A DNA stretch of 23,307 bases, taken from a virus. The stretch is taken from positions 1 to 23,307 of IMG/VR virus record IMGVR_UViG_3300006190_000016; one strand, given 5' to 3'. The position numbers and the translations under genes are program-made. Below, one piece after another: positions 1 through 23,307 of the stretch. The stretch's first letter is position 1. Every line of letters begins with the position of its first letter. The notes beneath the pieces are model-generated. The model made no database searches. It was not told the DNA's origin and was given only the letters and a program-made list of their open reading frames with translations.

Positions 1-3000
1 TAGGTCAGATATAGTAGTATCCAGAGAAGTAAGTATGGTGTCCTTAGCTACTCCCATTTGCTTAGATAGCTGCTCAATTTTAGCGTCTAACTGCTCATCA
101 GTAACCTGCCCCTCATTGGCTACTCGTAGTTCCCCAATAGCATCCCATACCTCTGTACGGAGTGTAGCTATCTCAGCTACCCTATCGTTGTTTAGATCTG
201 TCATCTTACTGTCTAACGCAGCGTCATCAGTGTTTATAGTCTTCAGTAACTCTCCTCTAGTTACTTCTAAGTCGCCAGACACCTTCGTTACTGCGGCAGC
301 GATTGCCTCATCCCGAGTGGTACCTTCTACCTCCATAGCCTTAACAAATTCGTCGGCTAACCTGCGTTCTACGTCTATAATATTATCGTTAGTCGCCTTA
401 ATATCGACAGCAATCTCATCACCTAGTCTACCAAGGGCAGTCGCTAGCATGGCGTGCGTAACAAAGTTATTGTCGGCCTCTACTAGATTATTTATAGCCC
501 CTTCAATAGCCTCTATACGGGTAACGTTGGGGTCGTTATCCATAATCGCATCAATCTGAGCATTGAGGTCGTCTCTAAGAGCATTTAGTTCATTTTGCGT
601 AGCAGGGATCGCGGTGCCAAACTCTGGGTCGTTTTGCAATCTCTGTTGTATCTGAACCTCAGCGGAACCTACTGTCTTACGAGTAAACGTAGCGACTTCT
701 TCATCACTTAGTGTGTAGCCTTTTGATTCCGCAAAGTCTCTAACCTGTTGCTCCGTCATAGTGTAGCGTACATCTTCTGGCTCAGTAGCTAACCACTCAC
801 CGATAGCCACGCTGATGTTTTCGGGGCCATACTTATTTTGGAACTGCTGCATCTGAGCGCCAGTCAAGTAAACACCGTGGTCATCTATACCCGCAGTACG
901 TATCTTCCCAGTTCCAACCGTGGCGATACCATAGCCCGGCTTTTGCGCTACGAATTCACCAATACCGGCTTGTGCGTCTTCTAATGTATCGCCAAGGAAC
1001 TGTTCCGCCTGTGCATCAGTAATAATTCTACCGTTACTAAGGAACTCGTTCTTAATCTGCTCTACAGTTACAGCAGGGGTACCTACATCCGTATCGGGGT
1101 CTTGTATATCTAGTTTTAATACTCCCGTTACGTTCTCTTCCGTATCCTGCCCTACGTATAAATCTGCTTCTTCGTCGGTAAGAATGACACCCTCTGCAAG
1201 CGCAGCTTCTTGCACTTCTCCTCGGTCTGTGAATAGGGGGTCAATGTATTCGGCAACGTCGGCGGTTAGGTCTGTATCAGCGCCAACTGCACCTACAAAG
1301 TTTGATATGTCAGCATCGCTAGCTGCAAACCCTAAGTCTTCAAACATCACCGACACTTCTTGACTACTGTTATATTCTGAGTCAAAAGACAAGTCTAGTA
1401 TATCTGTGCGGATAGCAGTGTCTTCTATACCGAAGTTATTTAGCACGGCTTCCACATCTGCCGAACTACCGCCGTTACCTATCGTGTCCGCTAGTTCTAG
1501 TTGGAAAGTGGGATTTCCGTTCATTAGAATCCTACCCTCTACACTGCTCGGATCACTACTACCGGGGGCACTAGGGTCAATAATATTTAGTCCGCCTACA
1601 GTACCTGCGACGGTACCTTCGAGAATTGCCCCCAAAGTTGCGGACGTAAGTATATTTTGCGACCAGTCGCGATCGGGGTCTAGTCCAGAGTTATATATTA
1701 ACAACTCCTTAACGGCTGCTACACTACCCTCTTCTATACCCCCAGTTATCGCTTCTGAACTCACGGGCTTGAGAGTTTCGTACATCTGCAAGAATGTATT
1801 TTTCTCTTTAAGTGTGGCTGTAGACATGTCTTTGCCAAACACTTTTTTGTACATGTCCGCGCCACCGATACCCATAGTTAGGCCAGTAACCATCATAGAA
1901 CTCATACCTACGGCGTGGGCGTTCGCAGATGCAAATCTTTCTGCTTCTTCTGCGGTCATGGGGGCTTCCATCTCCCCGGTTACGGCATTAAATTTTGGGG
2001 TTGTAGCTAGGGCATAGAACTCATCGTATGCGCCGCTAGCTTCTCCGCCGTACGCCTCCGCCATGTCGATTGCTACAGCTCCAGTAAAACCAAAAGTATT
2101 AGACATAGCAGATACAATCTCGTCAGACTGCTTTAGTCCTCTACCTATAACTTGTCCCGCGAGTTTGAACCCACCACCAAACAATAACGTAGGTACCTCT
2201 TGTATGACTTCTTTCATCACGAGGTCTTTTACAAACATGTCGGGGTAAGTGCTTATAGCTTCCCAGACTCCATCACTTTCTAGCAGCGCGTACATCTTAT
2301 CGCGCGCTTGTCGATAGTCTTCTGTATGCGTGGCGTTAGCCATACCACTTATAGCGTTTGTTACTTCTTGGAAGGTAGAACCCGGTATCTCGGATTGTCC
2401 AGATTCAAAATCTTCTATCATGGCTTTGTGTATGTTTTCGTTATACTCTAACCCAGCCGCAGCATAGTGTGGCGCAGGAGACATACCTATAGGGACGTTC
2501 TTAACAGTCTCTATAAACCAATCTATGCCACCCATAAACTCGTTAGTTGCTTCAATTACGTTTACGATGTCGTCTACAAACTGCTCGGCTGATTTACTTC
2601 CCGTCTGGGGGTCGCCACTTATTATGCCGGAGACACTACCGGAGTAGGGCAAAGCAAAATCTGCATCCTTATATTTCTCTAGAGTATCTAGCATGCCCTT
2701 AGCGGTCTCGTACCACCAGTTACCTGCGACGTCTTCTCCCACGCTTTGGGGCATCTCTCCAAGGGTTTTTAGCCATGCTTCGGGGTCTGTAACCAGTAAG
2801 GTCTCTAGGGGATCACTTGACCCAAATGCGGCTTGAAACTCTTCGGTTTGCATGGCTGGAACGGCTTCTGTTAAGTTACCCTCCGCGTCTTGCTCCTGCA
2901 CGTATGTCGTGCCGTTAGCATTGGCTTCGTAGAACCTAAACCCACCATCATCCGTTTGTTCTGTTATCGTCTGGTTCTCGGCTAACTTAATGCCTCCGTT

Positions 3001-6000
3001 TACGTAAGATACGTCTTGTCCATCTGGCCCAGCAAAGGTGCCATTTAGAGGCTTCATCTCTCCATCTACTATTGCGTACTGGTTGTTAGTCTCCTGCACG
3101 GTCAGTACATTGTTACCAAACCTATCCGTACCTTGAAGGACTAGTCCGTACTCGTCGTCGTAGGAAACAGATTGCATACCCTCAGTGGACACCACTTCCC
3201 ACGTTAGTTTGCCTGTTACAGGGTTAAAGGTCAGTCGCGCATCCCCGGACACCACATCTGCCCAGTCCGCAGCGCCCCCAAGTGCGATACCCATAGAACT
3301 TTTTTGGTTGCTCTCTTCTACTACTAATTTACGCCTGTCCCCAACGGGTACGAAGTCCCCGACTTTTAAATCCTCAAACGGTAATCCAGCCGCCTCAAGC
3401 CGCTCTTGCATGCTGCCAATGTTTTCTTCCGTAAGAACGTACTCTTGAGCGCCACCCAAATCAGACAGTGCCATAAGAGAACTTTGCACGCGCCATGTTA
3501 GTGCGGCTTCGTTCGCTAGTCCGTCTTTTAGAGCCTGTATGTCGCCCCCATAGGTCTGATTGAGGCGGTTTCTAATTCTTTGGAGTTCTTCTGGAGATAG
3601 TTTAGCTGGATTTATACCCGCTGCGGTTATAGCGGTGTTCATCAACTTATTAAATGCGGCGTCGTACTGCGTCCCAAACTCTTCTGCATTAGCAGCGTCG
3701 CCGTTTCTTAGGCCGTTTTGTAGGTAGTGGTCGTACGCACTCTCTCCCTCAGGGATGTTGTGTTTTTGTCGGTACCAAGACTCATCAAAATTAGGAGCAA
3801 GGTTTGACACTGTACCTTTTTCCAGTTCTAAAAATGCGGGGGTTAGATTGTCGTTCAGTATGACTGTAGCCTCGTTGAGGTCGTCACTAGCGTTGTTAAA
3901 ATCCTCGACCGCATCATTATGCGCATTCTGCGCATTGGTCATGTTATTGTCGTACGTCTCTAGGAGAGGTTGGTACTCTGTAGTTGCTTTATCTATGTAC
4001 GCAGTTAGGGCGTTGTTGTACGCGTCTATATCTGACTGGCGACCTGTAGCTTCCGCGTAAGTTTGTAAATCCTCAACGGATTGCCACTCATCTTTCATCT
4101 GTGTCTGGATAGCGGCGGCGTCTGAGTAGTTCGTATCGTAAACACCTTGTTGGCGATCCATCTCTTCAGTAGCCAGTCTTGTATTAGTGAACTCCCCAGT
4201 TACCTTATCCGCCATAACGGCAAGGTCATCCCCTAGGGTTCCGTCACGTATGGAGTCCTTCGCAGCGGCAGCGGCGGCGCTACCAATCGTCATCAAAAAC
4301 GCAGTAGAAGCGTCTCCACCCAAAGCGGCGCTAACCACAGCGCTGTTGATTGCTTGGGTCATTAACCTAGCCCCCACAACGTCGTTCGCGTATTCGCCTA
4401 TATTTTCTTCCACTATTTTAGTAGTAATAGTTGCCGAAGTTAGCGCCTGAGTCATAGCCGCTTCGTCTATCTCCCCATTTACTACAGCGTCCTTTAGCCC
4501 TTCTTCAATAGCATCTCGTGCCCCCTCAGGAAGGTTTTTGAACGTATCTCCAGTAGCTACTTTTAGCCTCTCCCTTACAGCGTCCATGGAGTCTAGTGGT
4601 ATACCTGCGGCTTTGGAGGTGTTTATAAACCCGTCCAGCACAGATGTAGCGGCGTCAGTTATAGGAGTTAGTACTTTAGTGTCTATCTTGTCTGCTATAG
4701 CTTCAAAGTCATCGAAGATGGGCTGTAGTACGTCATCATCAAATTTAGACAGTAGGTCATCTATATCAGAAAAATCAACCCCCACAGCAGCTTCTATGCC
4801 GCCGAGTATGGGCTGTAACACCTTGTCATCAAAAGCGCTTAGGGCGTTTAGGGTAGTCTCAGACAGATTCACACCGTACTCTTTTAGTACCGCCTCTATG
4901 TCATCCCCAACTCCGGTGGAGGCAATCCAATCTTTAACCGCCTCAGTCCCCGCAGAGGCCAACGCCTCCTCAAAAGAATCTCCGGCTATCATCTTATTCG
5001 TAACGTCGTTTAGCCCTTCTATTATTGCGGGGCTGAAGTTATCAGCAGTAATCCCTAATTTAGCGAAACCCGACTGTATGAAGTTTCCACCATATGTAGA
5101 CATCAAAAATTCTTTTGGGTCGCCTGTCCCGATAGCGTTGAGTAGTAATATTGTTTCGTTGTAGGTCATTGCCCCTAAACCTACACCTGCTAGTAGCCTC
5201 GCTTTTTCGGCGGCACCGGCAGCGGTAACGGCTGCGTCTGTGGCTCCACTGGCTTTCGATGCGGCTTCGGTGGCTTTCACTGCTTTTTCCACATCGGCGG
5301 CACTAGGAGGAGGAGTAATTTTCCCTGCTATCTTTAGCCCGGCGATAGCAACGGTAACATAATCCATACTGGTTATCGTCTGACCATTAGCTGCCCGTAA
5401 AGCCACCATAATAGCGGCTGGAATCGGCCCCATTAAGGATATAGCCGTATTCATAGCGTTAAGCGCGCTGTTCCACTGGTCTTGAGTACTGTCCCAATAC
5501 GACTGTTCTTGCCCGTTGTTTTTCTGACCATACAGCAAATCGTACTGATTTAGCGTGTCTAGGGGGTCATCTTGATCCTTAAACGAGTCATATATATCGT
5601 CAGACACTACCTTCCACATATCTCGGGGATCAGCACCAAAACCAGCAAAAAGAAAGTCGGTAACGTCATCCAGTACCCCCCTTTCAAAGTAATCTTCAGG
5701 GTCGCCAAAACCTATTTGCGCCAATGCGTAGGGAGTAGCGGTGAACAACTCGATTCTAGGATTTTCGTCGAAGATTAGTTTTCCGTCCGCCCCCCTTCTT
5801 TCTGTCTCTTCCGTATTAAGTGAGGGGCCAGCAACAAACTCCTCATTCCACACGTCATAGTAGAAGTAGGAGTTGTCCGAGTTTTCGTTGAGTAGCGACA
5901 CAAAATCCCGCTTAAAGTCGTCTTCCTCTATGAATCCTCTGTCCCGTCTACTCTCTAGAAGGGTCATTTTTAGGTGGTGTGGGGAATCTCCATAGGCTTT

Positions 6001-6990
6001 TAAATATGCACCTACGTCTCCAGACTCTATAATCTCATCCATGTACTCAATGTAGCCCTGACGCTTACGCTCGAACTCTTTAGCGATTATCAGCTTGCCC
6101 GAAGCTCCGTGGCGGTTTTGATCCACCATATTTCCTTCAGCATCAAATTGGTCAAACCACTCTTGCGCAGTGGTGGCATCCACCCCCCGGCTTATCATGT
6201 TGTTGTAGGTGTATATGGCGTCGTATTCTTTATATTCCCTCGTACCCGAAAAAGACTGAAACCCTGTTTCTCCAGAAGTGTCGTACTCTCCGCCCGCCAG
6301 ATTATCGACAATAGTGCCGTCGGCTAGAGTGGTGTATTTTTGGTCAAAAGCGTTGAACCCCAACATGCCCAGCTTCTCTTGGTCATACTCTTTATACGCG
6401 TCACGGGTGCTACTAAGTACCCTCTCCATATACAGGTTTGGGTTTAGGATGTAAGCATCTTGATCCCAAGGAAAACGCTGTAAAGTCTCTTGGATACCGC
6501 GTTCTCCATACATAGCACGGGAGAAACTTGCGAGATCATCTACTTGCTGTTGTTGGAGTTCCCACTCCCCCGTAGCGTGCTCCAAAGCACCACCACCACC
6601 ACTGCCAGTAAAGTCTGAAGCTACTGGAGGTGGCACGTTACGTACGGTCTGACCCCAATTCTCTAGGGCCGCGCCGTATGATGTGTCATTATTAAAATCC
6701 GCCCTGTCAGGTTTTAGTACGTTGCCTGTATACCCGCGAGTTGAAGCCCAGTCTCGCGTAGGTATCGGAATATCCCCAAACTTAGCTATCCGCTCATCGT
6801 CCCACGTAAGCCACGATATATCGAATCTTTCCCGTACAGCTTGTTTAGCTAGGTTAAGGTCGCCGGAGCGAATGGTTTTACCGTCTTTTAGGTCTTGATG
6901 AAACTGCTGTACAGCCGGATCACTATCCAACATATCGTAATACGAAGGAGCGGGAGTATTAGCTAGCCATTGCGCGTGAGCTTGAGACAT
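1..6990 (-). CDS. Giant phage virion protein, partial (C-terminus beyond left edge); candidate internal/ejection protein
   Basis: Reading the minus strand from ATG at 6990, every in-frame codon to base 1 is open: 2,330 residues with no stop in the window. The ATG lies one base after the stop of the upstream gene (TAA-T-ATG). Visible segments: a hydrophilic Tyr/Asp/Trp-rich N-terminal region (1-500); hydrophobic Ala/Gly-rich stretches near 511-550, 584-627, 850-930 and 1591-1770; an FDDxVLQPI repeat (720-777); a WYRxKH...AYDHYLxNG module (1068-1097); four helical repeats (about 1880-2118); and a predicted coiled coil from about 2131 to the edge. I see no catalytic motif. Its place at the end of the virion genes, and its size, recall the large internal proteins ejected with podovirus DNA (T7 gp16 is the classical analogue), but this is inference. 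A polyvalent or fibre-like protein is possible. The coding call is very secure; the role is not. Confidence 0.9.
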   Translation of the reverse strand, partial: MSQAHAQWLANTPAPSYYDMLDSDPAVQQFHQDLKDGKTIRSGDLNLAKQAVRERFDISWLTWDDERIAKFGDIPIPTRDWASTRGYTGNVLKPDRADFNNDTSYGAALENWGQTVRNVPPPVASDFTGSGGGGALEHATGEWELQQQQVDDLASFSRAMYGERGIQETLQRFPWDQDAYILNPNLYMERVLSSTRDAYKEYDQEKLGMLGFNAFDQKYTTLADGTIVDNLAGGEYDTSGETGFQSFSGTREYKEYDAIYTYNNMISRGVDATTAQEWFDQFDAEGNMVDQNRHGASGKLIIAKEFERKRQGYIEYMDEIIESGDVGAYLKAYGDSPHHLKMTLLESRRDRGFIEEDDFKRDFVSLLNENSDNSYFYYDVWNEEFVAGPSLNTEETERRGADGKLIFDENPRIELFTATPYALAQIGFGDPEDYFERGVLDDVTDFLFAGFGADPRDMWKVVSDDIYDSFKDQDDPLDTLNQYDLLYGQKNNGQEQSYWDSTQDQWNSALNAMNTAISLMGPIPAAIMVALRAANGQTITSMDYVTVAIAGLKIAGKITPPPSAADVEKAVKATEAASKASGATDAAVTAAGAAEKARLLAGVGLGAMTYNETILLLNAIGTGDPKEFLMSTYGGNFIQSGFAKLGITADNFSPAIIEGLNDVTNKMIAGDSFEEALASAGTEAVKDWIASTGVGDDIEAVLKEYGVNLSETTLNALSAFDDKVLQPILGGIEAAVGVDFSDIDDLLSKFDDDVLQPIFDDFEAIADKIDTKVLTPITDAATSVLDGFINTSKAAGIPLDSMDAVRERLKVATGDTFKNLPEGARDAIEEGLKDAVVNGEIDEAAMTQALTSATITTKIVEENIGEYANDVVGARLMTQAINSAVVSAALGGDASTAFLMTIGSAAAAAAKDSIRDGTLGDDLAVMADKVTGEFTNTRLATEEMDRQQGVYDTNYSDAAAIQTQMKDEWQSVEDLQTYAEATGRQSDIDAYNNALTAYIDKATTEYQPLLETYDNNMTNAQNAHNDAVEDFNNASDDLNEATVILNDNLTPAFLELEKGTVSNLAPNFDESWYRQKHNIPEGESAYDHYLQNGLRNGDAANAEEFGTQYDAAFNKLMNTAITAAGINPAKLSPEELQRIRNRLNQTYGGDIQALKDGLANEAALTWRVQSSLMALSDLGGAQEYVLTEENIGSMQERLEAAGLPFEDLKVGDFVPVGDRRKLVVEESNQKSSMGIALGGAADWADVVSGDARLTFNPVTGKLTWEVVSTEGMQSVSYDDEYGLVLQGTDRFGNNVLTVQETNNQYAIVDGEMKPLNGTFAGPDGQDVSYVNGGIKLAENQTITEQTDDGGFRFYEANANGTTYVQEQDAEGNLTEAVPAMQTEEFQAAFGSSDPLETLLVTDPEAWLKTLGEMPQSVGEDVAGNWWYETAKGMLDTLEKYKDADFALPYSGSVSGIISGDPQTGSKSAEQFVDDIVNVIEATNEFMGGIDWFIETVKNVPIGMSPAPHYAAAGLEYNENIHKAMIEDFESGQSEIPGSTFQEVTNAISGMANATHTEDYRQARDKMYALLESDGVWEAISTYPDMFVKDLVMKEVIQEVPTLLFGGGFKLAGQVIGRGLKQSDEIVSAMSNTFGFTGAVAIDMAEAYGGEASGAYDEFYALATTPKFNAVTGEMEAPMTAEEAERFASANAHAVGMSSMMVTGLTMGIGGADMYKKVFGKDMSTATLKEKNTFLQMYETLKPVSSEAITGGIEEGSVAAVKELLIYNSGLDPDRDWSQNILTSATLGAILEGTVAGTVGGLNIIDPSAPGSSDPSSVEGRILMNGNPTFQLELADTIGNGGSSADVEAVLNNFGIEDTAIRTDILDLSFDSEYNSSQEVSVMFEDLGFAASDADISNFVGAVGADTDLTADVAEYIDPLFTDRGEVQEAALAEGVILTDEEADLYVGQDTEENVTGVLKLDIQDPDTDVGTPAVTVEQIKNEFLSNGRIITDAQAEQFLGDTLEDAQAGIGEFVAQKPGYGIATVGTGKIRTAGIDDHGVYLTGAQMQQFQNKYGPENISVAIGEWLATEPEDVRYTMTEQQVRDFAESKGYTLSDEEVATFTRKTVGSAEVQIQQRLQNDPEFGTAIPATQNELNALRDDLNAQIDAIMDNDPNVTRIEAIEGAINNLVEADNNFVTHAMLATALGRLGDEIAVDIKATNDNIIDVERRLADEFVKAMEVEGTTRDEAIAAAVTKVSGDLEVTRGELLKTINTDDAALDSKMTDLNNDRVAEIATLRTEVWDAIGELRVANEGQVTDEQLDAKIEQLSKQMGVAKDTILTSLDTTISDL

Positions 6991-6991
6991 A

Positions 6992-7789
6992 TTAGTTTTT
7001 TACCAGTAATCCAGTGAATGAGGCAGCGCCATCGTTATTACCTGAGCCAGTGTCGAGTGAGCGACACTCTATATCAGTCTTCTCGGGGATGGCTAGGGGG
7101 CGTGGATATAATACGTTTAAATACGTCTCACGTAAAGGGTGCTTAAAGTCTGAAACAAACGGAGAGTCTGCAACTGGAGACCTAGTAACGAAGTTACCCA
7201 AAGAAAAATCGGCGGCGGTGTTTAGGCGAATACTATAACGGAATACTACAGAATCTAGGTACAAGGTGTATCCGGCAGGCACAGTGTATATCGCAGCAGC
7301 ACTACTGTTACGCAGTGTACTAGAGTTAGCGTTATCTTGTACCAAGTATTTTGTGCCTGTAGGTACTCCACTACTAGTCCCTACTGAGTCTGTTACATAT
7401 ATGTCTCCAAAGTTTTTTGTGTTTGTCCCCACAGTTACGCTAGAGATCCTAAAAACGCGTATATAAGTGCTAGCGGTGGCTACCTGTGTACGCCCCTGCA
7501 TGATTATAACTTCAGACTGCAAGTTATAGTTGGCGTCTAGCCCCTCAAGTAGGAGGGTTTTAGTCCCTGTCTGATTTCCAGAGTCCCCGTCGTCGTTGTT
7601 AGAACTACTACTCACATATAAAGTAGCCGCAGAAGTACGGTAGGGCTGTAACCCCCCGCCCCAACGAACAGTCTCTTCAGTGGTGTCGCCGTCGCTAATG
7701 TCAGGGTTTACCCCCCATATAAATACGGGAATGACACCTTCTACGTCACCTTTTGCTACTTGTAGTCTGTATGGGTCTTGAGTAGCCAT
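6992..7789 (-). CDS. Beta-rich virion protein, second of a tandem paralogous pair (265 aa)
   Basis: No enzyme motif is visible; the composition (Ser/Thr/Asn/Val, short alternating strands) suggests a beta-sandwich virion or tail-surface protein. Its central and C-terminal parts align with the 307-aa product encoded just before it. Shared landmarks in the same order are LLLEGLDANYN, a TQV...YIR.F segment, VTVG..KN.G.IYV, SGVP, SAAA.YTVPAG and TLY.D. The N-terminal 50 residues differ and instead contain an IPVFIWGVNPD stretch. It starts at 7789, one base after the stop of the paralogue, and ends one base before the ATG of the giant gene, so it sits inside a tightly coupled unit. Most likely a tail accessory or receptor-contact protein; a capsid-surface role cannot be excluded. 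Confidence 0.85.
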   Translation of the reverse strand: MATQDPYRLQVAKGDVEGVIPVFIWGVNPDISDGDTTEETVRWGGGLQPYRTSAATLYVSSSSNNDDGDSGNQTGTKTLLLEGLDANYNLQSEVIIMQGRTQVATASTYIRVFRISSVTVGTNTKNFGDIYVTDSVGTSSGVPTGTKYLVQDNANSSTLRNSSAAAIYTVPAGYTLYLDSVVFRYSIRLNTAADFSLGNFVTRSPVADSPFVSDFKHPLRETYLNVLYPRPLAIPEKTDIECRSLDTGSGNNDGAASFTGLLVKN

Positions 7790-7790
7790 A

Positions 7791-8714
7791 TTAGTTCGCT
7801 ATTAGCACTCCGGTAAATTTACCTGTTACTTCGGCAGCGTTCGAGTTAGTGGAAAAAGTAATTAGCTCTACATCCACTTTTTCTGTCAACTTAATGTAGT
7901 TGGGGAAGTCTACATTTAGTAAGTTAGACCTTAGGGGGTAGTTAAAGTAGGCCACCTCTGCCCCATTAGTTACAAACTCCTGAGATATAAGCGAGATAAA
8001 CGAGAACCCTGAGATGGTAGCCCGTATGTCAGTTTTAAGCTGTACTAGGTCTATATACAAAGTGTGTCCGGCAGGTACAGTGTATGCCGCCGCTGCGGAC
8101 GTGTTTAGGGGAGCGTTATCGTCCGCACTTATTATTAAATAGATAGCGTTGTCAGGAACTCCACTAGTAGCCCCAGTAACAGCTACGTATACTATACCTG
8201 CGTTTTTACCCCCAGACCCTACAGTTACAGCCTCTACCTTAAATAGACGAATATAGCTTAGCGAACTTTCTACCTGAGTCTGTCCGTTTAGAGTAATAGT
8301 TTCCGATACAGCATTGTAGTTGGCATCTAACCCCTCAAGCAGGACTGTCCTAGCCCCCGAACCTGCGGAAGTATCGTTGGTATTCGCACTACTAATAAAC
8401 ACTGTAGCGGCCGAAGCGGGCTTTACCATACGCCCTCCTTGGTACTGTATGGTCTCTGCTGTATTCTGAGCTTGATCTTTATTGTAGCCAAAAACCGTTA
8501 TATTAGACGCTCCGGGGATCTCTCCTCGGGCTACCTGATCGTCGTAAGGCACGTCTACCCCCGCAATATTGCGTAGAGCGTTGTCTAGTTGGTTGAAGTA
8601 CTGACGTAGTATACGGTTGTGTTCGTTTGTCGCCCTTGGACTATACTCTGACTTAGCATTAGGTAGAGATGGAGCAACAAACGGTATGTTGTACTTAGTA
8701 GTATCCCCCGGCAT
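7791..8714 (-). CDS. Beta-rich virion protein, first of a tandem paralogous pair (307 aa)
   Basis: This product has two parts. Residues 1 to about 60 are polar and contain a short helix-like stretch (RILRQYFNQLDNAL) that could anchor the protein to the tail. The rest is beta-rich and matches the 265-aa neighbour across LLEGLDANYN, the TQV...YIRLF segment, VTVGSGGKNAG, SGVP, SAAAAYTVPAG and TLYID. The ATG overlaps the stop of the 629-aa gene by one base (TAATG), indicating coupled translation. The pair looks like a gene duplication in which the second copy lost or replaced the N-terminal segment. The function is unknown; the context (between a hub/nozzle-like protein and a giant protein) favours a tail or virion accessory protein. 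Confidence 0.87.
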   Translation of the reverse strand: MPGDTTKYNIPFVAPSLPNAKSEYSPRATNEHNRILRQYFNQLDNALRNIAGVDVPYDDQVARGEIPGASNITVFGYNKDQAQNTAETIQYQGGRMVKPASAATVFISSANTNDTSAGSGARTVLLEGLDANYNAVSETITLNGQTQVESSLSYIRLFKVEAVTVGSGGKNAGIVYVAVTGATSGVPDNAIYLIISADDNAPLNTSAAAAYTVPAGHTLYIDLVQLKTDIRATISGFSFISLISQEFVTNGAEVAYFNYPLRSNLLNVDFPNYIKLTEKVDVELITFSTNSNAAEVTGKFTGVLIAN

Positions 8715-10603
8715 TATCTTCTCCCATCAGGGCGGATGTCTAGTCTTTGTACTCCCGACTGCCATGCTACGCCCGAGTCAGTAGACTCTAGTTTTATAGA
8801 TATTTGTCTACCACGGATACGTAAGTATATCTGCCCAGTGTATTCCTCTACAGGAGTGGTAACAGTACGTAAGACGGTAGCACTAGAGTTTCCCCCCACG
8901 CTGGCGGGAGATGCCCGCCCAGACCCAGAGTCTGCGAGTGTAGACAACGACATGTTTATCGCCGCACCGTCCACTGTAGACCCATCAAAGGTCACATCCG
9001 GTAGTAGTCTCCGCACAAAGGAAAACTTATCCCCATCGTCGATGTCAAACTGTGCGGAGGTTATAAATGCGTTAATAGGATTTACCGTGGCTGTCTCCAC
9101 GTCGTCGTTACCTACTTCATGTTCTACCAACGTGTTGTTGTATGTAGCGGCGTACGGATGCCCCTGTAACCCTGAATCTAACCACGCGGTGCGCCCCATA
9201 GTGCCGTAGTACCAAATATCTTCTTGGTAGTTGTAGACTACGTACTTGTCATTAGTGCTAGAGGTGCTTGATGGGTAGAACCACCATACCTCATGGAATG
9301 CTTCGTTAGTACCAGATGTAACTTGGTTGTATTGCGAGTCGTTAAAGTCGTTAAAGATAAACTTACGTAGGTCACAGCGTAACGGTTGTGTTGTACCGTC
9401 GTACTTGTAAAACTTATCTCTACCCATCCAATAAGCAGTGCCGTTAGCGTAAGCAACAGAGGCTTTACTAGCAATAGAAGTGTTCTCTCCTACTAGCTGT
9501 GCCGCCCATACTGCGGGTGCCCCTACGTATTGAAATGCGTACATGGCGGAATCTGTCCATACTAAGATTTCCTGCCTAGATTGGATAGCAGATACTATCT
9601 TACTGCCCTTAGACAGAGTAAGGCTACCGGCTTGGTTTGTAGCGGAGGGTGCCCAGTTAGTAGCGTCTTCTTGGTCTGACCAGCGGATCAACATATCGTC
9701 TTGATCTGAGCCAAGGTATGGGTTACACCCAAAAGCAAAGCAAAATCTACTAATGTCAGATACAACGATACCGTTCTGTTTGGTAGGTACCCCTGACGCG
9801 CCAGTTTCGGCAGACAATAAAGTAGCTCTAGTAGTCAACGTGTCACTAGCATCCCACAGGAAGATGGGGCCACCCACAGGGCCAAAGATAAGGTCTTCGC
9901 CGAAGTTAGCTTGGCTCCACAAACGGATTTGCGAAATAGCGGATAGCACGGTTCCATCTTTGTGCCCCCAGTCTCCCTGTCCCCAAGTACCACCACCCCA
10001 ACCAGAAGTAGGTACATCAATAGCTGATCCGGTGTTTATTTGGTACGCAGCAGTTACGCTAGAACCCCCGCCAGTAGCCACACTTGTAGCGTTAGCGCCA
10101 GTATCTACAACAAACGACTGCCCATTAGCAGCTATAGAGATTATCTGATGTTCTTTGTTTATGTTAGCAGCGACTATACCCCCAACATCGGCTGACCCCC
10201 CGAGGGTAACGAAGTCATTCAGCTTGTATCCGCCAGTAGTATCTGCAATGGATATTTGGCTTTCTGTACCGCCAGTTGTGTTAGTGGTGATCGGATTGGC
10301 CGCGAGAGTAGCCTGTGCCTTACGCAGTGGGGTGATGTCGTTGAATACCGCACCACTTTCCAGATAAAACTTCAGGTGCGTACCTACACCGAATATGTCC
10401 AGCCCAGCTAATGTAGACCAATTCCACAAAGAACGGCACACGCCTAGGAACGTATTGCTAGATATGGCTTGCCAGCCCCCGATCTTCTCAGGGTTGCCTT
10501 GGCGGAAACGTACCTTATCGGACTCCCACCAGCCACCTTCACTAGTGTACCGAGTATTCTCTCGGTTTACTCCGGGCTTAATTACTATCTTCTGTATGGT
10601 CAT
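8714..10603 (-). CDS. Large tail/virion protein, nozzle- or hub-like (629 aa)
   Basis: A long protein beginning with KIVIKPGVNRENTRY, then a GGWWESDKVRFR.G.PEKIGGW segment, a motif I associate with tail proteins of podovirus-like phages. Regular Trp/Gly-containing strands (for example LFGPVGGPIFLWD-type and AYWMGRDKFYKYDG) suggest a beta-propeller. Residues about 100-210 form a Thr/Gly/Ala-rich insertion ending in a GWGGGTWGQGDWG segment. The likely role is a distal tail hub or nozzle comparable in position to T7 gp12 or P22 gp10; I see no direct signature of either, so the name is tentative. It follows the lysis cassette after a 75-base gap (10604-10678) in which I recognise no promoter or terminator. 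The ribosome-binding site is weak (AGAG about eight bases before ATG). The stop overlaps the next ATG. Confidence 0.85.
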   Translation of the reverse strand: MTIQKIVIKPGVNRENTRYTSEGGWWESDKVRFRQGNPEKIGGWQAISSNTFLGVCRSLWNWSTLAGLDIFGVGTHLKFYLESGAVFNDITPLRKAQATLAANPITTNTTGGTESQISIADTTGGYKLNDFVTLGGSADVGGIVAANINKEHQIISIAANGQSFVVDTGANATSVATGGGSSVTAAYQINTGSAIDVPTSGWGGGTWGQGDWGHKDGTVLSAISQIRLWSQANFGEDLIFGPVGGPIFLWDASDTLTTRATLLSAETGASGVPTKQNGIVVSDISRFCFAFGCNPYLGSDQDDMLIRWSDQEDATNWAPSATNQAGSLTLSKGSKIVSAIQSRQEILVWTDSAMYAFQYVGAPAVWAAQLVGENTSIASKASVAYANGTAYWMGRDKFYKYDGTTQPLRCDLRKFIFNDFNDSQYNQVTSGTNEAFHEVWWFYPSSTSSTNDKYVVYNYQEDIWYYGTMGRTAWLDSGLQGHPYAATYNNTLVEHEVGNDDVETATVNPINAFITSAQFDIDDGDKFSFVRRLLPDVTFDGSTVDGAAINMSLSTLADSGSGRASPASVGGNSSATVLRTVTTPVEEYTGQIYLRIRGRQISIKLESTDSGVAWQSGVQRLDIRPDGRR

Positions 10604-14816: not shown

Positions 14817-15116
14817 CTACTTCCTCCGCTTAGCAGGAGACACTCTACGTGGCTTACCCGCTGGTTGTCCTAGTCGATTCTTCTCGGCTATCTTACTCTT
14901 CTTCTCCGCACTAGACATCTCACCTGAGGTCTTTGGCGTCTTGGAAGATACACGCTTAGAAGGACGGCAGTAAGGAGTACCCCTACCCTCGCCTTTCTTT
15001 CTACCACAAGCCTTGCCGGTCTTAACGTCTTTCCAATCTTCCTTGAACCAACGCTTTAGAGACGCACCCTTCTCGGTTTTACGTACTCCACCGCCAGACT
15101 TATAATATTTACGCAT
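14817..15116 (-). CDS. Basic Cys-containing protein, DUF5872-like (99 aa)
   Basis: Starts MRKYYKSGGGVRKTEKG, followed by ASLKRWFKEDWKDVKTGKAC (about 18-37), GRKKGEGRGTPYCRPSKRVS (38-57), SKTPKTSGEMSSAEKK and a basic tail. The block LKRWFKEDWxDVxTGKxCGR...PYCRPSKRVSxKTPKT is, from memory, the core of the DUF5872-type domain found in marine phages and large eukaryotic algal viruses; I could not check it. Two cysteines (C37, C50) are the conserved ones. The first residues MRKYYKSGG resemble the start of the neighbouring 45-aa product (MRRYYKKGG), suggesting duplication or a shared N-terminal tag. Start overlaps the 45-aa stop (TAATG). Role unknown. Confidence 0.82.
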   Translation of the reverse strand: MRKYYKSGGGVRKTEKGASLKRWFKEDWKDVKTGKACGRKKGEGRGTPYCRPSKRVSSKTPKTSGEMSSAEKKSKIAEKNRLGQPAGKPRRVSPAKRRK

Positions 15117-15253
15117 TACTTACCAGCCTTCTTCTTTCGGCATTTAGCGATAGCTCCAGACGCATACGCGGAAGGGAAGACCTTGTAGCTGGCCTTCACC
15201 TTCTTATAGCATGAGTCTTTTACGGTACCGCCTTTCTTGTAGTACCTACGCAT
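15116..15253 (-). CDS. Very short basic protein, YKVFPSAYASGAIAKCRK type (45 aa)
   Basis: This short gene starts with ATG at 15253, overlapping the stop of the 157-aa gene by one base, and ends with TAA at 15116, overlapping the next ATG in the same way. The product is MRRYYKKGGTVKDSCYKKVK (1-20), ASYKVFPSAYASGAIAKCRK (21-40), KKAGK. Perfect TAATG junctions on both sides and a recognisable motif make it a real gene despite its size. The CYKKVKxxYKVxPSAYASGAxxKCRK motif recurs, as I recall, in marine phage and algal virus basic proteins, sometimes fused to other modules of this cassette. Function unknown; highly positive charge suggests nucleic-acid contact. Confidence 0.85.
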   Translation of the reverse strand: MRRYYKKGGTVKDSCYKKVKASYKVFPSAYASGAIAKCRKKKAGK

Positions 15254-15726
15254 TAGCGCATCTTACAGGCTTTACCACCACGTGCCATACCGTAGCCACG
15301 TACCTTGCCGCCTTTCTTCATCTTAGGCATGCCTGCGAGTGCTTCCATACCCATTTCGCCACCCATAGCGCCAGCTTGTTTCTTACGCTTAGGTAGTTCC
15401 ATCTTAGGCATCATACCCTTCTTAGGCATTGCTTTCTTCTTAGGCATTGCTTTCTTCTTGCTGGCTTTCTGTTTCTTTAGGTTTGCAATTGCCGCAGCAG
15501 CCTGTTCATCATCAAGCGGCATGTTGCCTTGCCCTTTCATAGGCATAACATCGCCACCATCCTGATACGCTTGCATCTTTCCGCCTTTCATCATCTTAGG
15601 CATTTTCTTTTTGGCTACTTCAGCCTCTGCCATACCTTCTTTCGTGTATGGGAATTTTTTACCAGCTACATTAGGCATCTTACGGCCCTCCAATTCTTTA
15701 GGTATTTGTGATCGTGAAATTGTCAC
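15253..15726 (-). CDS. Lys/Met-rich repeat protein sharing the capsid-protein N-terminus (157 aa, GTG start)
   Basis: Starts with GTG at 15726 directly after the previous TAG. The N-terminus MTISRSQIPKEL matches that of the major capsid protein (MAISRSQLLKEL). The rest is extremely rich in Lys, Met, Gly and Ala: KKMPKMMKGGKMQAYQDGG, a short acidic helix (LDDEQAAAAIANLKKQ), then repeated KKAMPK units (about 88-105), MPKMKKGGKVRGYGMARGG and CKMR at the end. KGGK motifs occur several times. No enzyme motif is present. It may bind DNA or the capsid inner surface; the shared N-terminus raises the possibility of a capsid-directed peptide. A purely repetitive, fast-evolving virion protein is the cautious reading. 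Confidence 0.83.
   Translation of the reverse strand: MTISRSQIPKELEGRKMPNVAGKKFPYTKEGMAEAEVAKKKMPKMMKGGKMQAYQDGGDVMPMKGQGNMPLDDEQAAAAIANLKKQKASKKKAMPKKKAMPKKGMMPKMELPKRKKQAGAMGGEMGMEALAGMPKMKKGGKVRGYGMARGGKACKMR
15422..15457 (-). repeat. 18-bp perfect tandem repeat coding KKAMPK
   Basis: The plus-strand unit ttaggcattgctttcttc occurs twice head to tail (15422-15439 and 15440-15457). It encodes two six-residue KKAMPK units in the 157-aa basic protein. Further partial copies (cttaggcat) recur at about 15323, 15403, 15590 and 15670, so the whole gene appears to have grown by short in-frame duplications. Confidence 0.95.
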
Positions 15727-16053
15727 CTAACACTTCCAACGCTTACGCGCTTGTCTTAGTCTTGAGTTAGGGTCTTTTGCTGCTTTAGGGAACTTCTTCA
15801 TCTGCCCTGCGGAACGTGCGCAATAAGACTTACGTCTAGATGCGCGTTTTCCTTTAGGCTTATCTTCCGTTACAGCCGTTTTTAGTTTACTGCCGGGGTT
15901 GTTCTTACGGTATTTAGCTACACCTTTAGCGGTCATGCCCGCACCGGATTTAGTAGGACGTTTGTCGCCGCTCTTCTGGCTCATCCCCTTCATGCCGGTG
16001 CCGACCTTCCCACCTTTCGCTAGCTTATAACAAACTCCGAAATCATTACGCAT
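15727..16053 (-). CDS. Small basic protein with RRKSYCARSAGQMK motif (108 aa)
   Basis: Begins MRNDFGVCYKLAKGGKVG, continues as Lys/Gly/Ser-rich sequence (KGMSQKSGDKRPTKSG; GVAKYRKNNPGSKLKTAVTE) and ends with RASRRKSYCARSAGQMKKFP (about 69-88) and KAAKDPNSRLRQARKRWKC. The terminal RRKSYCARSAGQMK...KDPNSRLxxARxxWKC block is strongly patterned and, to my memory, recurs in marine phage and algal-virus proteins of unknown function. It carries KGGK like its 157-aa neighbour and ends in Cys. It opens the run of five basic genes, four bases after the second 93-aa gene. The ATG at 16053 is preceded by no clear Shine-Dalgarno, which fits coupling to the upstream gene. Confidence 0.83.
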   Translation of the reverse strand: MRNDFGVCYKLAKGGKVGTGMKGMSQKSGDKRPTKSGAGMTAKGVAKYRKNNPGSKLKTAVTEDKPKGKRASRRKSYCARSAGQMKKFPKAAKDPNSRLRQARKRWKC

Positions 16054-17412: not shown

Positions 17413-18321
17413 TTAAGCGCCCGGAGATCCGAAGACACCCAGTGGGTCAGAAACGCCGAATGAATAGCGCTCACGAGCCTTGTAACGGCTGTTGCCTGTA
17501 TCGAAGTCGCCGTCCATAGAAGTAGCCATTGGGCTACGAACGAAGTGCTTCAGGCCATTAGGGATGTCAGTAGTCAAGAACCAGTTGTCTGTATCAGTCA
17601 AGTAGTTATTGATAGTGTAACCCTGTGGTACAACACCGTTGCTCTTAATGGCGTTGAGATCGTTATCAGCAGTGCCTACGCGACCTTCAGTCTCCAACAA
17701 ACGAGTAGCAACGAATTGCAGGTTTGGTGGAATGATTAGCTTCTTAGGCTTAGCAGCGATCAGGAGACCACGCTCGTCAGTCCAGCCAGCGATCTGAATA
17801 ACAGCAGCTTCCAAAGAAGTTTCGTTAAGATCAGCAGCAACGGCTGGTTCGTTAGAGTTTACACCACCGCCAACCAATGGATGGTCAGTAGCACAAAGTG
17901 ATTTACCATCACCATAAGTAGTGCCAGCAGCAAAAGCGTTGTTCAGAATGTCTGCGCCTTTAACCTGCTTAGTGTAAGCCATCGCACGAGCAAGCGCTTT
18001 AGTATAACGAGATGACAAAGAGTCATACAGGTTATCTTCAATTGCTTCTTCAGTGATAGCGAAACCCATAGCTACAGTTTCGTGAGTGTAACGAGCAGTG
18101 AATGCTTCTTGCGCGTTATCGTACTCAATTGCTGCACCTTCCGCCTTAGTTGGGGCAGAGCCAAAACCAGACAGCTTAGTTTCTTCTTCAAAAGAACGGT
18201 CAGAGTTTTCAGTCTCGAAAATCTCTTTGTGCTCTTCGCCATATTTTGCGTACTCTAAACCGAACAGTGCGTTCAGGCCGGGTAGCAATTCTTTTAGTAA
18301 TTGACTTCTTGAAATAGCCAT
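17413..18321 (-). CDS. Major capsid protein, Mu gpT-like (302 aa)
   Basis: Forms the icosahedral head shell. Features typical of the Mu gpT-type (HK97-fold) capsid family are GFAITEEAIEDNLYDSLSSR (86-105), a helix with YTKALARAMAYTKQVKGADI, a GDGKSLCATDHPLVGGG segment near 135-155, and KKLIIPPNLQFVATRLLETE further on. A KARERYSFGVSDPLGVFGSPGA end completes it. The N-terminus MAISRSQLLKELLPGLNALFG is preserved, with no obvious large delta domain, as expected when a separate scaffold exists. A strong Shine-Dalgarno (AGGAG nine bases before ATG) and a strong terminator just downstream suggest high, self-contained expression. It lies in the order scaffold, 148 aa, 205 aa, capsid. Confident. Confidence 0.9.
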   Translation of the reverse strand: MAISRSQLLKELLPGLNALFGLEYAKYGEEHKEIFETENSDRSFEEETKLSGFGSAPTKAEGAAIEYDNAQEAFTARYTHETVAMGFAITEEAIEDNLYDSLSSRYTKALARAMAYTKQVKGADILNNAFAAGTTYGDGKSLCATDHPLVGGGVNSNEPAVAADLNETSLEAAVIQIAGWTDERGLLIAAKPKKLIIPPNLQFVATRLLETEGRVGTADNDLNAIKSNGVVPQGYTINNYLTDTDNWFLTTDIPNGLKHFVRSPMATSMDGDFDTGNSRYKARERYSFGVSDPLGVFGSPGA

Positions 18322-20952: not shown

Positions 20953-23307
20953 TTATTCCTTAGGTTTTTTACTCGCCTCTAGCTTGACCTTACCTAACTC
21001 TAAATCAAGTTTGGTGTTTGCGGTCTTCCTATCGGCGGCTAGTTTTGCGCCCGCTTTCTGAGCGTCGATTTCCAGCTCTTGTTGCTTGAGCTGTAGTTCA
21101 GCCTGATCCATCTGGGCGTCGGACTGCTGTGCTTTAGCCTTGAGTTGTAGCTCTTGCATTTTGAATTGCGCATCGGTCTGGTCTTTCTGACCCTTGCGTT
21201 GTACTTCTGATTGCTTAATCTGTAGCTCCTGCTGCTGCATCTGGATGATTGGGTCTTGCTGTTTCTGCTGCGCTTGGGCTTGTGCGGCCTGCGCTTTATG
21301 CTCTTGCGAAACCTGACCGCCAGCGTTAGCTTGGAGTCTAGATAGTTGAACTTCGATCTCTGGAGGTAACTCTTCGTTTGGCTTAGGCAGCTTGACGCCG
21401 AGCTTGTCTTCCAGTTGCTTACGGTATCTAAACCCTATGTGCTCAGCGATATGTGCTTGTAGCGCCGCCATAATTTGCTTTGCTTGTGGGTTCTGTCCGA
21501 TACCTTGCATAACCATTGGATCTTGCATAAACGCTTGGTGTGTTGCTATATGCGCTTCGTGGTCTTGCTCAATAAACGCTTTAATAGGCGTACCTGATAG
21601 TGCGTTCATGTTTTCGCTTACGGGATCAGTCAAGTTAATGTCCTCGTCCGTAGGCACTAGCTTATCTGCGTTCTTAATGCCTAAAACTTCAAGCATCTGG
21701 CGGTGCAACTGTGGTAAGTCGTAAATCTGCGGAGCCTTCTCCGCCATCTGTAGGGCTGCCTGATACTGTACAACGCGTTGGGCCATTGTAGAGCTGTTAG
21801 GGTCGCTTACAGGGATTACGTCCACCATAGCGTAGTCTGACGCACGCGCTGTTACTTCGCCTCTAGCAGGCTCGTAGGCGTACTCAGAGGGAGCTTCTTC
21901 TGCCATGATAGCTTTGAGCATCTTAAACTCTAACTTCATAGCGAAGTGAACTCGGGCTTGTACTGCTGCCATAGGCTTCAGCGTACGCTCTAGTAGCGCC
22001 AGCGTAGTGCCCACAGGGGCATTGGCTGACATGTCAGAGATGTTCATATCTGCGATAGCGCCTAATCTACGGCCTTCGTTAGTAATCTTATCCAATAGGG
22101 CTAGTAGGGTCTGGCTAGGCTCTTTATAAGGAAGAGTCATAATGTTGTCGCGGATGCTACCTGATGGCACATCTACGTCTTTAAACTCACCCGGCTCGAT
22201 TGGAGAGTCGTCACCTTTGATACGTAAACCACGGGACTTCAAGCCACCCGGTAGGTTAGAAAGCGTACCAGAGTCCACCAATTGCCGTATAATCGACGTT
22301 CCTGCTTTAGCGTACCCACCTATAATGTGAATCAGTCCAAGGCCGTAGAAGCCAAATCCGGGCACATACACGTAGTGTACAAAATGCTGGCGCTTGAGAG
22401 TTAGGGGATCTGACTCATCCCAGTTACGGCGGATAGCTAGGATTTCTCCCGTGCCTCGCTCAATAGTAACTACGTAAGGCTTAGCGATGTCGTCTTCTTC
22501 AGAGTCGCCAGAACCGTCAATAACTAGGTCAGCATGGATCTCCATAAGGGTATATCGACTGTCGTCTGTTAGAGTGAAGCCGCCGTCTTCTGCTTTAGCC
22601 TCTTCGATGTCCGTATGGAACGACACAGGATCACCTAGCTCTATATCTGTATAGAAGCCGCTTACTTGTAACTTACGGATCTCGTTCTTGGTCTTGCGCA
22701 TTATGTGGCAGACACGTTCGGCAGTCTCGATGTTAGACGCGCCGTATGGCACTATAACGTCTTCTGCGGGGATATAAAGGGCGCACTGCCGTCCCATATT
22801 AGGATCGAAGTAAACCTTCTTAAACGCGCTCCCTGCGAGTCCTAGGCTGTATAGCATACGCTCATGCTCAGAGCGGTACTCGACCATACGCTCGGTAAGT
22901 TCGTAGTTCATGTCCGCTTTCACGCGCTCTGCGGCCTCTACCTTCTCTTTATTCTCCATACCTAGGATCTTGACCTTAACAGGGCCAGCGGCGGGGAATG
23001 TCTCACTCATAGTCTCTGCTTGAAACCGAATAGCTGCTTCCGCTAGTATAGTAGAAGTCACGCCACAAGCGCCTTCCCAAGGAGTAGTACGCTCTTCGGT
23101 CTTAAATCCTAGGACATCTAGCCCTTTAACGTAGGCGTCTGCCCAGTCTTTCCGGCTGTCTTGGTCTGCCTCTACAAGCCCTAACAAGTCGCCAGAAAGC
23201 TCCTGAAGCTCCTTCTCATCTAAGGATTCAGCTAAATTTTCATCGAACCCACCTTCTCCCATCTCGTTTCCGGGGATGATAGTGATTTCTACAGAACCAT
23301 CGTCAAG
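20953..23307 (-). CDS. P22-type portal protein, partial (5' end beyond the right edge)
   Basis: Forms the dodecameric DNA entry and exit ring at one head vertex. An ATG exists at 23262, but 15 further open codons (LDDGSVEITIIPGNE) run to the window edge, so the start lies outside; at least 784 residues. Portal features include RKDWADAYVKGLDVLGFKTE, TPWEGACGVTSTILAEAAIR, FPAAGPVK, LYSLGLAGSAFKKVYFDP, and HFVHYVYVPGFGFYGLGLIH. The C-terminal 120 residues are Gln/Lys/Ala-rich and heptad-like (ELQIKQSEVQ; QELQLKAKAQQ; ELQLKQQELEID), probably a helical barrel extending into the head as in P22. It opens the head module; the terminase genes would be expected further right. Confidence 0.9.
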   Translation of the reverse strand, partial: LDDGSVEITIIPGNEMGEGGFDENLAESLDEKELQELSGDLLGLVEADQDSRKDWADAYVKGLDVLGFKTEERTTPWEGACGVTSTILAEAAIRFQAETMSETFPAAGPVKVKILGMENKEKVEAAERVKADMNYELTERMVEYRSEHERMLYSLGLAGSAFKKVYFDPNMGRQCALYIPAEDVIVPYGASNIETAERVCHIMRKTKNEIRKLQVSGFYTDIELGDPVSFHTDIEEAKAEDGGFTLTDDSRYTLMEIHADLVIDGSGDSEEDDIAKPYVVTIERGTGEILAIRRNWDESDPLTLKRQHFVHYVYVPGFGFYGLGLIHIIGGYAKAGTSIIRQLVDSGTLSNLPGGLKSRGLRIKGDDSPIEPGEFKDVDVPSGSIRDNIMTLPYKEPSQTLLALLDKITNEGRRLGAIADMNISDMSANAPVGTTLALLERTLKPMAAVQARVHFAMKLEFKMLKAIMAEEAPSEYAYEPARGEVTARASDYAMVDVIPVSDPNSSTMAQRVVQYQAALQMAEKAPQIYDLPQLHRQMLEVLGIKNADKLVPTDEDINLTDPVSENMNALSGTPIKAFIEQDHEAHIATHQAFMQDPMVMQGIGQNPQAKQIMAALQAHIAEHIGFRYRKQLEDKLGVKLPKPNEELPPEIEVQLSRLQANAGGQVSQEHKAQAAQAQAQQKQQDPIIQMQQQELQIKQSEVQRKGQKDQTDAQFKMQELQLKAKAQQSDAQMDQAELQLKQQELEIDAQKAGAKLAADRKTANTKLDLELGKVKLEASKKPKE

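Follow-up and report, generated by a model that had tools for sequence, protein, structure and literature searches.

The window analysed here, a linear stretch of 23,307 bp that constitutes an entire IMG/VR record, carries on its minus strand a single open frame of 2,330 codons, which starts with an ATG at 6990-6988, adjoining the stop codon of the upstream gene, and runs stop-free to base 1, where it is still open at the window edge. The chance of such a frame from base composition is ~6e-58, and its GC content at the three codon positions (0.58/0.40/0.46) stays even from one end to the other. As the window is the whole record, the 3' end of this giant gene is not recoverable from it. Compared to the complete nearest homologue (2,502 residues; IMGVR_UViG_3300000115_000078, loci L008/L135/L137), which occupies the same location and ends with its own stop codon, the giant of the window misses ~170 residues at the C-terminus. 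The stop-free minus-strand frame of at least 2,330 codons, reported in a preliminary description of this DNA, is thus borne out, with the following features.

1..6990, minus strand: giant gene, proposed ejection protein; 2,330 codons up to the contig edge, which cuts off the 3' end; 2,502 residues in the complete homologue
3691..6990, minus strand: variable N-terminal part, residues 1-1100; 27-45% identical to the nearest homologue
691..3690, minus strand: conserved core, residues 1101-2100; 80-94% identical to the nearest homologue, dN well below dS
1336..2406, minus strand: E-domain, residues 1529-1885; predicted all-helical in a low-confidence model; conserved family-wide, in 49 other contigs
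1558..2007, minus strand: part of the E-domain, residues ~1662-1811; aligns with the N-terminal domain of the N4 virion RNA polymerase (vRNAP), N4 gp50 ~318-443
595..762, minus strand: predicted small helical repeat, residues ~2077-2132; sole part of the first AlphaFold2 model with pLDDT near 90

The giant gene is real and under purifying selection, as its core is highly identical to that of the homologue with dN well below dS. Beyond the core the identity drops to ~30%, and the tail hub encoded upstream is 92% identical between the two records. Sharp steps in nucleotide identity lie inside the giant gene at window positions ~3690 and ~690, corresponding to residues 1100 and 2100. Because the synonymous divergence also steps sharply, the comparison suggests that the N- and C-terminal modules have been swapped by recombination around a core under purifying selection. 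Positive selection on the N-terminus was considered and rejected, since a dS step from ~0.3 to over 2 favours replacement by recombination instead. Within the variable part, residues ~500 to 900 are hydrophobic and rich in Ala and Gly.

Structure prediction by AlphaFold2 gave low confidence both for residues 1100-2135 (mean pLDDT 45) and for the E-domain (41 sequences, mean pLDDT 48), the latter being all helical. The Foldseek comparison proposed in the preliminary description was carried out on these two low-confidence models and yielded nothing significant against PDB and BFVD. We therefore use the models for two points, namely that the E-domain is predicted to be helical and that the prediction is good for one small repeat around residue 2100.

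The strand of the giant also encodes portal, GroES-like, capsid, adaptor-like, endolysin-like and tail-hub proteins, and the neighbouring features are listed below.

6992..7789, minus strand: phrog_8198 protein, second tandem copy, adjoining the giant gene
7791..8714, minus strand: phrog_8198 protein, first tandem copy
8714..10603, minus strand: phrog_3287 virion structural protein, named "stabilization protein" in relatives; from annotation and position, a P22-gp10-like tail hub
14817-16053: three small and highly basic proteins (99-157 residues, net charge +25 to +28), between the capsid and adaptor genes
17413..18321, minus strand: major capsid protein, 69% identical to the capsid of Planktothrix phage Pag-Yong1
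20395-20772, minus strand: GroES-like gene of the structural module, also in HTVC027P, CRP-902 and Pag-Yong1
20953..23262, minus strand: portal protein, phrog_1216

The closest capsid, portal and hub proteins belong to Pag-Yong1, the pelagiphages HTVC023P and HTVC027P, the roseophages CRP-901 and CRP-902 and phage DSL-LC04; these genomes measure 52-65 kb. HTVC023P-type phages have been described as Podoviridae (PMC9599517), and CRP-901/902 have been placed in the same family as HTVC023P/027P (PMC10149686). The giant comes from an aquatic short-tailed phage. As for the smaller neighbours, the homologous phrog_8198 tandem pair in L135 consists of paralogues 42% identical to each other, and other known relatives of phrog_8198 are mostly found in large Synechococcus phages. 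The last of the three basic proteins has a C-terminal region common to several function-unassigned PHROGs.

As the giant changes fast, its relatives were reached through the neighbouring genes first, and later through alignments of its domains and core. The E-domain is carried by 49 other IMG/VR contigs, a set that includes near-identical copies from related samples, and the complete genes encode 1,409-3,005 residues. The largest complete member (L182:6971-15985, 3,005 residues) is cysteine-free and has the same C-terminal tail, a segment with a GGIIxxNxELLRLLGE-like sequence that is conserved in nearly all complete relatives. Searches of Pfam, PHROGs, NCBIfam, INPHARED and GTDB genome contigs gave no match to the giant family; tblastn of the window giant against the 50,697 phage records of INPHARED found no relative, and no isolate in INPHARED carries the giant gene. 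Moreover, a single-peptide search of IMG/VR with the window giant found nothing, and sequence searches of the PDB, both single and profile, returned chance matches only.

In the relatives, the genes are arranged in the order of hub, (phrog_8198), giant, a, b, c and d. The phrog_3287 tail hub is located upstream of the giant in 48/48 contigs with room, and genes a/b lie within 54 bp after the giant in 20 of 21 complete cases (20/20 with room), the exception being L149, where the contig ends ~210 bp past the giant gene. We presume that a-d constitute an ejection-gene cluster. As these four genes follow on the same strand, the earlier statement that the giant ends the structural operon is wrong; it seems to be the last gene because the contig stops inside it. 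At loci L014, L022, L028 and L046, the place of the giant is taken by a protein of 745-1,001 residues, which has regions in common with some giants and a similar C-terminal ending. The isolates HTVC023P/HTVC027P, CRP-901/902, Pag-Yong1 and DSL-LC04 share homologues of genes a and b (by BLAST), the hub-then-cluster order and a nearly cysteine-free cluster; however, they lack a homologue of the giant and have smaller genes at its place.

The wide length range at one locus, from 745 to 3,005 residues, raises the question of whether the giant is not a pilot that engages the membrane but a tape-measure-like ruler or tunnel protein, whose length determines that of a periplasmic tube. Its Ala-rich helical composition would agree with such a function, and the tape measure of phage lambda, which also exits the virion, is likewise cysteine-free. 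Nevertheless, the relatives (CRP-901/902 and HTVC023P-type phages) are short-tailed and have no tail tube to measure, and the giant sequence outside the core is module-like instead of a uniform helical repeat. In addition, the tape-measure name given in DSL-LC04 derives from gene a, namely from a short motif at its C-terminus, and has no basis in the giant. Altogether, we consider a ruler very unlikely.

Gene d encodes a very large, polyvalent-type protein in five of the relatives.

L137:16957-21402; L142:16521-21338; L152:14959-19785; L159:11757-16523; L141:11830-16485: gene d

The N-terminus of the gene d product resembles phrog_6958, annotated as "virion structural protein". The protein contains an HExxH motif, and the LPD39 domain scored above the Pfam cut-off in 4/5 proteins tested. 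A polyvalent protein, one of the identities first suggested for the giant, therefore occurs in such clusters, but outside the window. The giant resembles large polyvalent proteins (LPD), among which gene d of the relatives qualifies, in size and in likely virion packaging; in contrast, it has no LPD or fused-enzyme domain match. The absence of any enzyme signature noticed at first sight was confirmed in Pfam, PHROGs and NCBIfam, where no enzyme family was matched. One may still imagine the giant as an ejected polyvalent effector that chiefly carries anti-defence or host-takeover enzyme domains in its N- and C-terminal modules, as these variable modules could be swappable effectors, the adjacent gene d is polyvalent, and both polyvalent proteins and a podoviral RNA polymerase appear among the structure matches below significance. 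However, neither the window giant nor its nearest homologue matches an enzyme or LPD family, and gene d already fills the polyvalent role, so that we regard this possibility as highly improbable.

Profile comparison pointed to a similarity between the E-domain and the N-terminal domain (NTD) of the N4 vRNAP. Against the single sequence of N4 gp50, the best place of the E-domain profile is residues 340-442, without significance. A vRNAP-NTD profile was built from twelve schitoviruses, its region being chosen from this best place itself. Alignment of the two profiles by hhalign gave a probability of 85%, a single-comparison P of 5.9e-6 and a score of 45 over 125 collinear columns, compared to a score of 12.4 for the reversed profile, at most 18.4 for sixty column-shuffled decoys and at most 20.4 for five unrelated families of the same phages. 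With six distant vRNAPs, leaving out N4 and its nearer relatives, the probability is 71% and the register is unchanged. Four disjoint subsets of the giants kept this register in one direction of comparison or in both, with a strong match (68%) only for the subset that includes the window giant. The N-terminus of gene d also aligns weakly with the same vRNAP region (65%), and its direct match to the E-domain is weak (probability of 5-8%). Against the proteins of T7, P22, SP6, phiKMV and P-SSP7, the E-domain profile performed no better than decoys, and the E-domain HMM scored no higher than its shuffled or reversed decoys on the proteins of these five phages and N4. Because the P-values are those of single comparisons, the region was picked by N4 and single sequences show no match, homology between the E-domain and the vRNAP NTD is likely, but not proven. 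Furthermore, N4 gp50 matches four vRNAP Pfam families, none of which was found in the window giant or the complete homologue; judging from these domain searches, the giant has no recognisable RNA polymerase, unlike N4 gp50.

The proteins of the locus are also depleted in cysteine. The window giant contains 0 Cys in 2,330 residues, where the composition of the other window proteins would predict 16.9 (P ~4e-8). The giants of the family have 0 or 1 Cys each and genes a-d have 0 Cys in ten loci; the tail hubs of giant-bearing phages have 3-6. Among the reference phages T7, P22, N4, SP6, phiKMV and P-SSP7, 18 ejection proteins have 2 Cys in 15,049 residues, including N4 gp50 with 0 Cys in 3,500 residues, and 50 control virion proteins of non-ejection type have 160 Cys in 25,449 residues; the ten controls devoid of cysteine are all under 580 residues. 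This cysteine-poor criterion was measured here on six reference phages and is not a published definition; we found no statement of such a rule for ejection proteins in the literature searched, and older literature may hold one. A plausible cause would be that the chains are threaded unfolded through a narrow channel and emerge in the oxidising periplasm. Ejection proteins are not alone in lacking cysteine, since the T4 long tail fibre gp34 (1,289 residues) also has 0 Cys.

This fibre shows that a long fibre can be cysteine-free, and the giant gene lies next to the tail hub, as might be expected of an external fibre or tail-tip protein with a shaft of coiled coils and repeats and a variable part for contact with the host. 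In the nearest homologue, the C-terminal part includes a collagen-like GXX stretch containing SAYxxA repeats, and repeats of this type are often seen in phage fibres. However, the giant has a conserved middle and 1,100 variable residues at its N-terminus, the reverse of the usual fibre plan of a conserved N-terminal anchor and a variable C-terminus. Its hydrophobic, Ala/Gly-rich segments, its predicted all-helical core and the profile match between the E-domain and the vRNAP NTD also speak against a fibre; no fibre family was matched, and the other long receptor-binding proteins tested (N4 gp65, lambda J and P22 gp9) have 8-11 Cys. The suggestion of a giant fibre is thus disfavoured, and we regard it as unlikely.

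Of the three identities offered in the preliminary description, the DNA-ejection protein is the best supported, by gene position, cysteine depletion and the N4 vRNAP NTD-like domain. The giant gene lies after the tail protein genes in a late structural operon, within what we take from its gene content to be an ejection-type cluster, and neither enzyme nor fibre families were matched in Pfam, PHROGs and NCBIfam. The C-terminal tail that nearly all complete relatives have kept is a further point in favour. Counting against this role are a net charge of -235, far more acidic than that of the reference ejection proteins, and the lack of a sequence match to the ejection proteins of T7 or P22. On balance, we consider it probable that the giant is an ejection (pilot, internal virion) protein. 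In the course of infection, for which we infer packaging, ejection, membrane insertion, their order and the copy number of the protein, the giant would be stored in the capsid and exit via the portal and the short tail, preceding or accompanying the DNA, as a chain of small domains that can separate from one another. It might then contribute to a conduit through the Gram-negative envelope. The E-domain would engage the inner membrane, a role also ascribed to the NTD of the N4 vRNAP, and the variable terminal modules would contact partners specific to the phage or the host. An anchoring or packaging signal would be a suitable function for the C-terminal tail conserved in the relatives.

Compared to known systems, the window giant resembles gp50 of N4 (Schitoviridae) in its giant size (3,500 residues in N4), its lack of cysteine and its coding together with smaller ejection proteins, presumed ones in the case of the giant, and the domain threading through the tail proposed here for the giant is the same as that proposed for gp50. 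They differ in that the giant has no match to polymerase, plug or helical RNAP domains, its matching domain is central rather than N-terminal with variable outer modules, and the virion genes around it resemble those of HTVC023P-type phages instead of those of N4. The gp14/gp15/gp16 of T7 and the gp7/gp20/gp16 of P22 are likewise encoded after tail proteins and nearly cysteine-free; however, they have no detectable sequence similarity to the giant, which is more acidic and larger (~1.8 times T7 gp16 or more, in agreement with the first estimate that it exceeds this protein). Homologues of the gp15/gp16 ejection proteins are known to vary strongly in size (PMC8954989). Members of the giant family exceed the sizes of T7- and P22-like ejection proteins. 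These giants most likely represent a family of ejection proteins that is unusually large and new to the databases searched.

The passage of very large proteins and DNA across two membranes has been detailed for only a few short-tailed models (T7, P22 and N4/DEV). The present family, with members of up to 3,005 residues and no match in the searched databases of isolates and protein families, would extend the ejected proteins of aquatic phages by a large class. We tentatively put forward, as a possible rather than a probable generalization, that giant ejected proteins (1.4-3.0 thousand residues) of uncultivated aquatic podoviruses share the membrane-insertion module of the N4 vRNAP without the polymerase. 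In that event, the vRNAP NTD would exemplify a general injection module that has different cargoes attached to it and that also opens the polyvalent protein of the cluster, and near-total exclusion of cysteine would be a general mark of phage-ejected proteins. If real, the link to the NTD of the N4 polymerase points to a common injection module that could be tested in vitro with a fragment of ~360 residues. If the cysteine rule holds widely, anonymous phage genomes could be scanned cheaply for ejected proteins.

The giants of one subgroup (L012/L162, L160 and L163) have several EF-hand or dockerin-like calcium-binding loops (DxDxDG). A calcium-driven refolding was considered and dropped, as these EF-hand motifs are real in the subgroup but missing from the window giant.
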